Part shown: positions 30,968-33,045 of the stretch, one piece after another
Layout of the letters: every line of letters begins with the position of its first letter
How positions within the stretch are numbered: position 1 is the first letter of the stretch
Source of the DNA: an uncultured Bacteroidota bacterium
GTDB lineage: Bacteria; Bacteroidota; Bacteroidia; Flavobacteriales; Flavobacteriaceae
Direction of reading: 5' to 3'
NCBI GenBank assembly: GCA_903824755.1
Contig: CAIJXW010000043.1
Span: 1-40,647, forward strand
DNA length: 40,647 bases
Made by a program: the position numbers and the translations under genes
The notes under the pieces: generated by a model
Seen by the model: only the letters and a program-made list of their open reading frames with translations
Databases searched by the model: none
Told to the model about the DNA's origin: nothing

Positions 30968-30986
30968 CGAAATAAAAATATTTTTT

Positions 30987-31026
30987 AAAACTCTCAAAGA
31001 GTTTCAAATTCTTTGAGGGTTTTTTT
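30987..31026 (+). terminator. Terminator of the sigma/anti-sigma operon
   Basis: AAAACTCTCAAAGA pairs with TCTTTGAGGGTTTT (one G-U) around a 9-base loop and runs into seven T residues. Confidence 0.88.
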
Positions 31027-31040
31027 CTAAAAAAACTTTG

Positions 31041-31048
31041 TAACTTTG
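31041..31048 (+). promoter_or_regulatory. -7 element for dnaG
   Basis: TAACTTTG, a full match, 23 bases ahead of the TTG start of dnaG. The preceding terminator ends just upstream, so dnaG is expressed separately. Confidence 0.55.
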
Positions 31049-31071: not shown

Positions 31072-33045
31072 TTGATTTCAAAAGCTACCATAGATACTGT
31101 TTTCGAAACTGCTCGCGTTGAGGAGGTGATTGGCGATTTTGTTCAGTTGAAACGTGCTGGAAGCAATTTCAAAGGACTAAGCCCATTCTCTGACGAACGT
31201 TCGCCTTCGTTTATGGTCTCGCCTGTAAAACAAATTTGGAAAGATTTTAGTTCAGGAAAAGGAGGCAATTGTGTCGCTTTTTTAATGGAGCATGAGCATT
31301 TTACCTATCCTGAAGCCATTCGATATTTGGCCAAAAAATATAATATTGAAGTTGAAGAAACGATTCAAACCGATGAAGAAAAAGCAAATACAGATGTTCG
31401 AGAAAGCATGTATTTGGTTTCTGAATATGCCCAAAAATATTTTCACGAGACACTTTTAAATTCAGAAGAAGGAAAAGCAATTGGCTATACTTATTTCAAA
31501 GAAAGGGGATTTACGAACGAAACAATAAAAAAATTCTCGCTAGGTTATTCGCCAGAAACTTGGGACGCATTTTCGCAAGATGCACTTGGGAAAGGCTATA
31601 AGCTAGAATTTCTGGAAAGCACAGGGTTTACAATTGTTAAGGAAGAAAAACTTATTGACCGTTTTCGTGGTCGGGTGATGTTTCCAATTCAAAGTATGTC
31701 TGGACGAATATTAGGGTTTGGAGGTCGAATTTTGTCAACCGATAAAAAAGCAGCCAAGTATCTAAATTCTCCCGAAAGCGATATTTATCATAAAAGTAAA
31801 GTTTTGTATGGGATTTTTCAAGCAAAACAAGCCATAGCCAAACAAAATAATTGTTTTTTGGTAGAAGGTTATACAGATGTAATTCAATTTAATCAGGTTG
31901 GAATCGAAAACGTAGTTGCCTCTTCAGGAACGGCTTTAACGCCTGATCAAATTAGATTAATCAACAGATTAACAAAAAATATCACCGTTTTATTTGATGG
32001 AGATGCCGCAGGACTTCGGGCTTCTATTCGTGGTATCGACTTGATTCTAGAAGAGGGAATGAACGTAAAAGTTTGTGCTTTTCCAGACGGGGAAGACCCA
32101 GATAGTTTTGCTAGAAAAACACCTTATGAAGAATTGGTTTTGTATTTGGAAGAAAATTCCAAAGACTTTATTCAGTTTAAAGCTTCACTTTTGATGAATG
32201 ATGCCAAGAATGATCCGATAAAAAAGGCGGGTTTAATTCGAGATATGGTGACGAGTATTTCTAAAATTCCAGACCGCATTCAACGAGAAATTTATATTCA
32301 AGAATGTTCCAGAATAATGGATATTTCCGAGCAGGTATTGATTAGTACATTAGCTCAAATGATTCAAAAAGATGCAGTTGAATCAGGAAAAAAACTAAAA
32401 CAAGAGCAGAAATCTTTTGAGATAATAAAAAACGAACCCGAAGTTACGGTAGAAAAAATTGACATTCTCTATCAATTAGAAAGAAAAATAATTGAAATTT
32501 TATTGCTTTATGGACACAAAACAGTAGAGTTTGAAGACATTACTATTAAAACTAATGAAGATGGGGAAATTAAAGACGTTTCCGAAAACAAAGAATATTT
32601 AGTCTACCAAAGGGTTTATTTGAGTTTGCAAGAAGATGAGGTAGAGCTTGCAAATCCATTTTTTAGAGCTATTTATGTAAATTTAATTGAGTACTTTAAT
32701 CAAAATGAACACTTCAATATTGAGCAATATTTGATGCAATTGCCACCAGAATTTGCCCAAGAAGTAACCGATGTTTTGATGGAAGACGAACGATTAACAC
32801 TACATGATTGGGAGGGGCAAAATATATTTGTCAAACAAAAAGATCAAAATATTAGCCAATATGTTTCCGAAACAATATTAACGCTCAGATGGTATCTTGT
32901 CGATAGGCTAATTGAGGAAATAAAAGGCTCAATCTCTTCCGAACCCGAATCTGATAATTCAGAACCGCTATCTCTGGCAATGGATTATTATAAACTGATT
33001 AACTCTTTTTCAAATAAATTAGGGCGTGTAATGACACGTTATTAA
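31072..33045 (+). CDS. dnaG: DNA primase without zinc ligands
   Basis: A 657-residue primase that makes RNA primers at replication forks. The start codon is TTG: an in-frame stop lies directly upstream and the product MISKATIDTV matches the family N-terminus. The N-terminal domain aligns with the CHC2 zinc finger, but the four ligands are replaced: Ser37 and Ser40 in GLSPFS and Asp58 and Ser61 in KDFSSGKGG, where CPFH and CFxCGxGG are normal. The TOPRIM catalytic core is intact: FLVEGYTDVIQF and VLFDGDAAGLRA. The C-terminal helicase-binding region is about 430-657. The fold is probably retained without metal. Confidence 0.95.
   Translation: MISKATIDTVFETARVEEVIGDFVQLKRAGSNFKGLSPFSDERSPSFMVSPVKQIWKDFSSGKGGNCVAFLMEHEHFTYPEAIRYLAKKYNIEVEETIQTDEEKANTDVRESMYLVSEYAQKYFHETLLNSEEGKAIGYTYFKERGFTNETIKKFSLGYSPETWDAFSQDALGKGYKLEFLESTGFTIVKEEKLIDRFRGRVMFPIQSMSGRILGFGGRILSTDKKAAKYLNSPESDIYHKSKVLYGIFQAKQAIAKQNNCFLVEGYTDVIQFNQVGIENVVASSGTALTPDQIRLINRLTKNITVLFDGDAAGLRASIRGIDLILEEGMNVKVCAFPDGEDPDSFARKTPYEELVLYLEENSKDFIQFKASLLMNDAKNDPIKKAGLIRDMVTSISKIPDRIQREIYIQECSRIMDISEQVLISTLAQMIQKDAVESGKKLKQEQKSFEIIKNEPEVTVEKIDILYQLERKIIEILLLYGHKTVEFEDITIKTNEDGEIKDVSENKEYLVYQRVYLSLQEDEVELANPFFRAIYVNLIEYFNQNEHFNIEQYLMQLPPEFAQEVTDVLMEDERLTLHDWEGQNIFVKQKDQNISQYVSETILTLRWYLVDRLIEEIKGSISSEPESDNSEPLSLAMDYYKLINSFSNKLGRVMTRY

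Follow-up and report, generated by a model that had tools for sequence, protein, structure and literature searches.

A DNA primase of Flavobacteriaceae with a zinc-ribbon domain lacking all four zinc ligands, and the recurrence of this form in Bacteroidota, Chlorobia and Alphaproteobacteria

The dnaG locus

The stretch of DNA analysed here (40,647 nt, hereafter the window) comes from an uncultured bacterium of the family Flavobacteriaceae and carries a dnaG gene, whose product exceeds the curated cut-off of the NCBIfam profile (283.6 bits) and has the DNAG_N, TOPRIM and DnaB-binding segments of a replicative DnaG (Table 1). The Pfam model Zn_ribbon_DnaG spans residues 3–96 of this product. The TTG start is the commonest one among the sampled Flavobacteriaceae dnaG genes (TTG in 38 of 68, ATG in 29 and GTG in 1). 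Inspection by eye of the upstream region (30985–31048) points out an inverted repeat and a T run that look terminator-like, as well as a TAACTTTG box resembling the −7 element of Bacteroidota; positions 1–95, with which the window opens, resemble, again by eye, a leucine-type tRNA.

Table 1. Features of dnaG in the window and location of the alphaproteobacterial zinc-less ribbons
Feature	Position	Strand	Remarks
dnaG, DNA primase, 657 aa, TTG start	31072..33045	+	TIGR01391, 422 bits
CHC2 zinc-ribbon domain without zinc ligands, residues 1–95	31072..31356	+	Pfam PF01807, 90.6 bits
Lys34, polar, three residues ahead of the first ligand place	31171..31173	+	Lys/Arg in 126/133 zinc-less DnaG
Ser37 (AGC), place of ligand Cys 1	31180..31182	+	Ser in 133/133 zinc-less DnaG
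Ser40 (TCT), place of ligand His	31189..31191	+	free position in relatives
Asp58 (GAT), place of ligand Cys 2	31243..31245	+	Asp or Cys only in zinc-less DnaG
Ser60 (AGT)	31249..31251	+	133/133 in zinc-less DnaG; Gly in most CHCC DnaG
Ser61 (TCA), place of ligand Cys 3	31252..31254	+	Ser/Thr only in zinc-less DnaG
DNAG_N, N-terminal part of primase catalytic core, residues 124–252	31441..31827	+	PF08275, 131.8 bits
TOPRIM domain, residues 262–346	31855..32109	+	PF13155, 70.4 bits; E265, D309 and D311 in invariant columns
DnaB-helicase binding segment, residues 380–421	32209..32334	+	PF10410, 36.9 bits
Alphaproteobacterial zinc-less ribbons (Methylobacterium, Methylorubrum, phage Sansa)	L381 1501-1845, L382 1501-1845, L378 156-500

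Absence of the zinc ligands

The zinc site of the template-reading domain of DnaG is regarded as essential in textbooks. When the ligand places were set by alignment to the Cys, His, Cys and Cys of Aquifex DnaG (PDB 2au3), the window protein was found to have Ser37, Ser40, Asp58 and Ser61 there, so that all four ligands are gone, as the original prediction had stated; the codons are AGC, TCT, GAT and TCA. The same prediction took the TOPRIM core to be intact, and E265, D309 and D311 indeed do not vary across 67 aligned sequences, the window DnaG included.

We also asked whether other residues might serve as ligands. Cys and His occur within residues 1–110 only as C67, H74 and H76, and we rejected these as substitutes because they are not conserved among the zinc-less DnaG described below: C67 is unique to the window protein among 133 such sequences, H74 is present in 85 and H76 in 81. 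Sequencing error at the four codons was ruled out, since the same four-place replacement recurs in genomes that were sequenced independently, among them those of every one of the 27 other family members sampled. We also rejected a pseudogene, on the basis of the same state in relatives and of the strong conservation.

A search of the genome to which the window belongs (190 contigs totalling 2.0 Mb; completeness 88.8%) with PF01807 gave one match, the window gene, and no second CHC2-ribbon protein. Nor was a zinc-bearing CHC2/DnaG partner found in this 88.8% complete genome, to which the window gene might stand as a zinc-sparing paralogue of the Zur-type C-minus kind. With its intact TOPRIM residues, the gene appears to be functional, as had been proposed.

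Ligand states in relatives and phages

We collected dnaG genes from whole Bacteroidota genomes and from a scan of GTDB species genomes with the pattern I-(F/W/Y)-K-x-F-S-(S/T)-G-K-(G/A)-G. The scan matched at least 118 contigs, and the matches listed are all titled Bacteroidota or Chlorobiota, a few MAG titles being plainly misnamed (e.g., records labelled 'Chitinophaga pinensis' whose primase is Crocinitomicaceae-like). In the sample of 209 full-length DnaG, which includes pattern-scan matches, 76 have the ligands Cys-His-Cys-Cys (CHCC) and 133 have S-x-(C/D)-(S/T), which we call zinc-less, and none is mixed; among the 119 proteins that were not selected by the pattern, the corresponding numbers are 76, 43 and 0.

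The replacement residues are highly stereotyped. In the 133 zinc-less proteins of this sample, Ser37 and Ser60 are present without exception, position 58 is Asp in 106 and Cys in 27 with nothing else, and position 61 is Ser in 78 and Thr in 55, again with nothing else. Position 40 is free (S, T, H, V, A, N, K, R or G). Lys34 or Arg34 accompanies these residues in nearly all cases, Chlorobia included, at a place that is mostly hydrophobic in CHCC DnaG. The Cys58 variant, which keeps Ser37, Ser60 and Ser/Thr61, has been found in Chlorobia, Crocinitomicaceae, several Cytophagales and Alphaproteobacteria, and this Cys58-only form may be an earlier step of the replacement. Such a restricted choice of residues indicates a specific polar replacement, not mere tolerance.

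The zinc-less form is shared by all sampled Flavobacteriales, among them the 27 further members of the window's family and the 5 of the order's other family; named genera and groups include Flavobacterium, Tenacibaculum, Polaribacter, Chryseobacterium, Crocinitomix and Cryomorphaceae. It is also present in some Cytophagales (Roseivirga, Reichenbachiella, Marinoscillum and Shiella), in Mucilaginibacter, in some Bacteroidales MAGs and in all Chlorobia read, including Chlorobium, and both forms occur in the two families that we numbered f3 and f8. Outside these phyla, two Methylobacteriaceae replicons carry the form, a 2.8-Mb one of Methylobacterium bullatum (S-N-C-S) and the megaplasmid of Methylorubrum extorquens (S-Q-C-S), and the primase of Caulobacter phage Sansa has S-T-C-S (Table 1). 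Copies with CHCC were found in Tistrella, Sphingomonas, Paracoccus, Pseudorhodobacter, Sinorhizobium, Shinella, Burkholderia and E. coli. The statement in the original prediction that Bacteroides keeps the ligands agrees with our data, the Bacteroides-like families f11 and f12 being CHCC; its placement of the loss inside Flavobacteriia proved too narrow in view of the Cytophagales, Mucilaginibacter, Bacteroidales, Chlorobia, Methylobacterium/Methylorubrum and phage cases.

In phages, all 29 viral contigs matched by the pattern encode a zinc-less CHC2 domain; a second viral pattern, of the HCFSSG type, matched 10 contigs. The eight that were scanned from the first set comprise long primases of about 1070–1190 aa, shorter proteins with ribbon and TOPRIM, one of the ribbon–TOPRIM–DnaB type and small ones with DUF6371. 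Phage primases and small proteins combining CHC2 and DUF6371, with the same zinc-less domain, were noticed among the viral contigs L339–L367. As for named phages, Flavobacterium phages laban6-1 and 1H and Cellulophaga phage Ingeline_1 have the zinc-less form, and Porphyromonas, Helicobacter and Leptospira phages have the CHCC form. The state of the phage primase agrees with the known state of the host group, and we regard this as a lead that comes from few lineages and is drawn at the level of host groups.

Constraint on the zinc-less ribbon

The frame of the ribbon outside the ligand-site columns is alike in zinc-less and CHCC DnaG in our alignment. Within Flavobacteriaceae (f1), the ribbon domain has a mean identity of 85%, whereas the catalytic core reaches 76% and the C-terminal domain 44%; the zinc-less ribbon is the most conserved part of DnaG within families (85–93%), and CHCC families have the same ranking of ribbon, core and C-terminal domain. 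As far as sequence comparison tells, the zinc-less ribbon is therefore unlike a decaying domain, and the constraint on it is strong.

This conservation bears on the view that the ribbon drifted after its role was lost, and that primers are started either with no ribbon to read the template or at a relaxed specificity. A precedent is animal Twinkle, in which primase activity was lost along with the zinc ligands (PMC7231222), and the DnaG literature treats the CHCC residues as highly conserved (PMC6163395). We nevertheless consider such a drift unlikely, because the domain that should have drifted is the best conserved one with invariant ligand places, the TOPRIM residues are intact with no other CHC2 primase found in the 88.8% complete genome, and phage primases keep the zinc-less domain joined to quite different partners. 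On the same ground of conservation we suppose that template reading may be retained.

Predicted fold and a possible hydrogen-bond lock

Structure prediction is in line with the expectation that the fold is kept without metal ligands. AlphaFold with mixed relatives (a model of 440 aa) gave pLDDT of 84–92 over the ribbon domain, and in a Foldseek search the model superposed on chain A of Geobacillus DnaG (1d0q_A) with an rmsd of 1.0 Å over 92 columns. With zinc-less relatives only, pLDDT was 88–94 for residues 11–90, and the best match was again 1d0q (1.1 Å). The predicted structure is thus a CHC2 ribbon fold, although AlphaFold, whose training included zinc-bound structures, can yield such a fold with no regard to whether the metal-free form is stable. 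It had been suggested that primer-site recognition works without metal, perhaps by the fold alone; the predictions do retain the fold, but the wording is an understatement, because the stereotyped replacements point to a specific polar substitution and not to mere tolerance of the loss.

The two zinc knuckles, C-x2-H and C-x2-C, have become S37-x2-X40 and D58-x-S60-S61 with Lys34 alongside, and we propose that these residues form a buried polar lock. Asp58 would take the backbone NH bonds normally accepted by a knuckle cysteine sulfur, and Ser37, Ser60 and Ser/Thr61 would donate across to Asp58, keeping the beta-ribbon in the shape that zinc otherwise enforces. With the shape kept, the same DNA-reading surface could be offered to the template. 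Asp58 is not obligatory, and because about one fifth of zinc-less DnaG have Cys58, the network cannot be identical in all of them.

The closest parallel that has been worked out is the lid of adenylate kinase, in which four Cys bind a metal in Gram-positives and a hydrogen-bond network does the holding in Gram-negatives (PMC4155613). In the sequences of the PDB chains, Geobacillus Cys130, Cys133, Cys150 and Cys153 align to E. coli His126, Ser129, Asp146 and Thr149, followed by Gly. Zinc-less DnaG and adenylate kinase alike show a set-wise change from Cys to polar residues in which Asp takes the third place and Ser/Thr the fourth. Because Asp third, Ser/Thr fourth and a following Gly are shared by DnaG, this lid and the DUF164 ribbon described below, we favour a metal-free polar lock.

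The same residues permit another reading, in which the oxygens of Ser, Asp and Ser bind Mg2+, Ca2+ or another hard ion. By chemical reasoning, Asp and Ser/Thr oxygens might coordinate such a cation, but the coordination sphere would be poor with place 40 free, place 58 being Cys in 27 of the 133 proteins and Ser37 and Ser60 unchanged, and Asp/Thr at the same places of adenylate kinase belong to a hydrogen-bond network. A bound hard ion is accordingly very improbable in our judgement.

Other zinc sites of the same genomes

Other zinc proteins of the same genomes were compared with DnaG. The cysteines of PriA (eight Cys), RecR and LigA are kept, in the window genome too, LigA having been read in all but one Chlorobia genome; a general loss of replication and repair zinc sites is rejected on this basis. 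The RecR of G318 (L262), a Roseivirga-like genome, has a one-residue deletion in its zinc motif, with C-T-C in place of C-x2-C.

The clamp-loader subunit DnaX behaves differently from these three proteins. Its C-x8-C-x2-C-x2-C module is deleted in the window genome (G000:C154:94-1116, L251) and is absent in all genomes searched of families f1, f2 and f7 and in the zinc-less ones of f8; it is present in f6, Mucilaginibacter, Chlorobia and all 35 CHCC genomes searched. These states were judged mostly by match length and score, a sample having been read directly. The DnaX of G166 (L294) has extra residues inside the module with the cysteines retained.

A third ribbon, that of a DUF164 (FlgZ-like) protein, has S-x2-S and D-x2-S for the two C-x2-C in the window genome (G000:C50:16425-16517, L330), where A-S-A-G-S...T-D-E-H-S-G stands against A-C-G-G-C...V-C-E-H-C-G. 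The pattern SXXS-X20-DXXS has been reported for DUF164 of Flavobacteria (PMC3372290). We found S..S/D..S in f7, P..S/D..S in f2 and A..C/D..S in two f8 genomes; the ribbon is intact in Mucilaginibacter, in Chlorobia, in G318 of family f8 and in those CHCC genomes that were read, the state in four other genomes, f6 among them, having been judged by score.

The states in the three proteins are nested, indicating from their distribution over genomes that DnaG lost its ligands first, then DnaX its module and then DUF164 its cysteines. The lineage would accordingly have shed structural zinc in this order while sparing PriA, RecR and LigA. Zinc economy may have been the driver; this is a correlation, and the three spared proteins keep zinc in the same genomes. 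Independent-pairs tests, counted on supported branches only, of co-change of K34, S60 and A29 and of DnaX with the DnaG state went in the expected direction with only 3–4 pairs and gave no significance. Altogether, the window gene is probably the cell's working replicative primase, bearing a metal-free ribbon held by a hydrogen-bond lock as part of a stepwise shedding of zinc.

Evolutionary history

Mapping of the ligand loss on a DnaG tree of Bacteroidota had been proposed as a check, and for the catalytic domain it gives several changes, not one within Flavobacteriia. The tree of this domain agrees with taxonomy and requires 8 state changes, well-supported branches forcing 4 of them. A single zinc-less clade is rejected by the catalytic domain (p-AU 1e-6), and the ribbon without the ligand columns is compatible with it (p-AU 0.44); for Bacteroidia alone, the ribbon test gives p-AU 0.64, and the joined tree scores better.

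This disagreement between domains would fit a history, compatible with the polar lock, in which zinc-less ribbons had one or a few origins in Bacteroidia and spread by N-terminal exchange, or some lineages re-acquired the zinc type, in place of many losses in situ. The ribbons of Mucilaginibacter and the zinc-less Cytophagales are as close or closer to those of other families than to those of their own zinc-bearing kin, with a cross-over near residues 100–120 beyond which the likeness is to their own kin, and phages bear zinc-less ribbons. On the other hand, the ribbon has 97 columns only, residues adjacent to the site may converge jointly, and both trees place Chlorobia on a branch to themselves. 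An exchange of the N-terminal domain, or else a joint change around the site, is thus possible in Bacteroidia, and we regard the exchange history as a real possibility that we somewhat doubt.

Codons at position 37 favour separate changes. Nearly all zinc-less Flavobacteriales, Cytophagales and Bacteroidales encode Ser37 by AGY, whereas Chlorobia, Mucilaginibacter and the three cases from Alphaproteobacteria use TCN. Because no single substitution turns AGY into TCN and very few switches between them are found inside Flavobacteriales, we infer at least 3–4 separate Cys-to-Ser changes.

Significance

The window DnaG appears to be a local case of a widespread and stereotyped zinc-free form of the ribbon that is apparently unreported. 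No prior report of a zinc-less DnaG was found in the open-licence literature for zinc and Bacteroidetes, Chlorobium or Alphaproteobacteria, and one may exist elsewhere. Zinc-losing ribbons as a kind are already known; as far as we searched, what is new is that the essential primase of replication is concerned, that the letters are repeatable and that phages show a parallel. A plausible generalization, which we offer tentatively, is that zinc knuckles of nucleic-acid machines can be swapped as a set for a metal-free lock with Ser first, Asp/Cys third, Ser/Thr fourth, Ser before it and Lys nearby, and that primases of Bacteroidota, Chlorobia and Alphaproteobacteria have repeatedly arrived at this lock by identical letters, in a set order relative to further zinc sites of replication, phage primases having the version of their hosts.

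Whole bacterial orders appear to replicate their chromosomes with a naturally zinc-free primase ribbon. The role of zinc in priming becomes directly testable by comparing natural zinc and zinc-free ribbons, and primase evolution becomes linked with the zinc loss that ribosomal proteins of these phyla have undergone. Caution is needed in annotating zinc-less DnaG as zinc-binding, and the finding is relevant to primase inhibitors directed at the zinc domain.

Comparison with known systems

The closest structural references are the DnaG of Geobacillus (1d0q) and Aquifex (2au3), which the window protein resembles in domain order, predicted fold (1.0–1.1 Å to 1d0q), TOPRIM residues and the frame P38-F39, S46-F47, G62 and G65; it differs in that the four ligands have become S, S, D and S and that Ser60 and Lys34 accompany them. 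The adenylate kinase lid resembles DnaG in that the knuckles have been replaced as a set, with Asp third, Ser/Thr fourth and Gly next, and with the fold kept, but it belongs to an unrelated protein and has His and Ser at the first two places where DnaG has Ser and a free residue. The flavobacterial DUF164/FlgZ-like ribbon (PMC3372290) is of the same lineage and, as seen in the window genome itself, has the same S, S, D and S, whereas it is an unrelated ribbon with another function and stands later in the order of loss.

Recurrent lineage-wise loss of ribbon ligands, as in DnaG, is known for the C-minus ribosomal proteins (S4, L31, L36 etc.; Makarova 2001, PMC3087516), with losses strongest in groups including Bacteroidetes and Alphaproteobacteria; Table 2 of that paper gives mostly C-minus ribosomal proteins for Bacteroidetes and likewise for Alphaproteobacteria. 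Such C-minus proteins often have paralogues and zinc regulation, whereas the window DnaG is a single gene for which no paralogue was found in the 88.8% complete genome. The N-terminal domain of animal Twinkle (PMC7231222) is likewise a DnaG-type ribbon without the zinc residues; unlike Twinkle, which has lost the primase function, the window DnaG keeps conserved catalytic residues together with a conserved ribbon.
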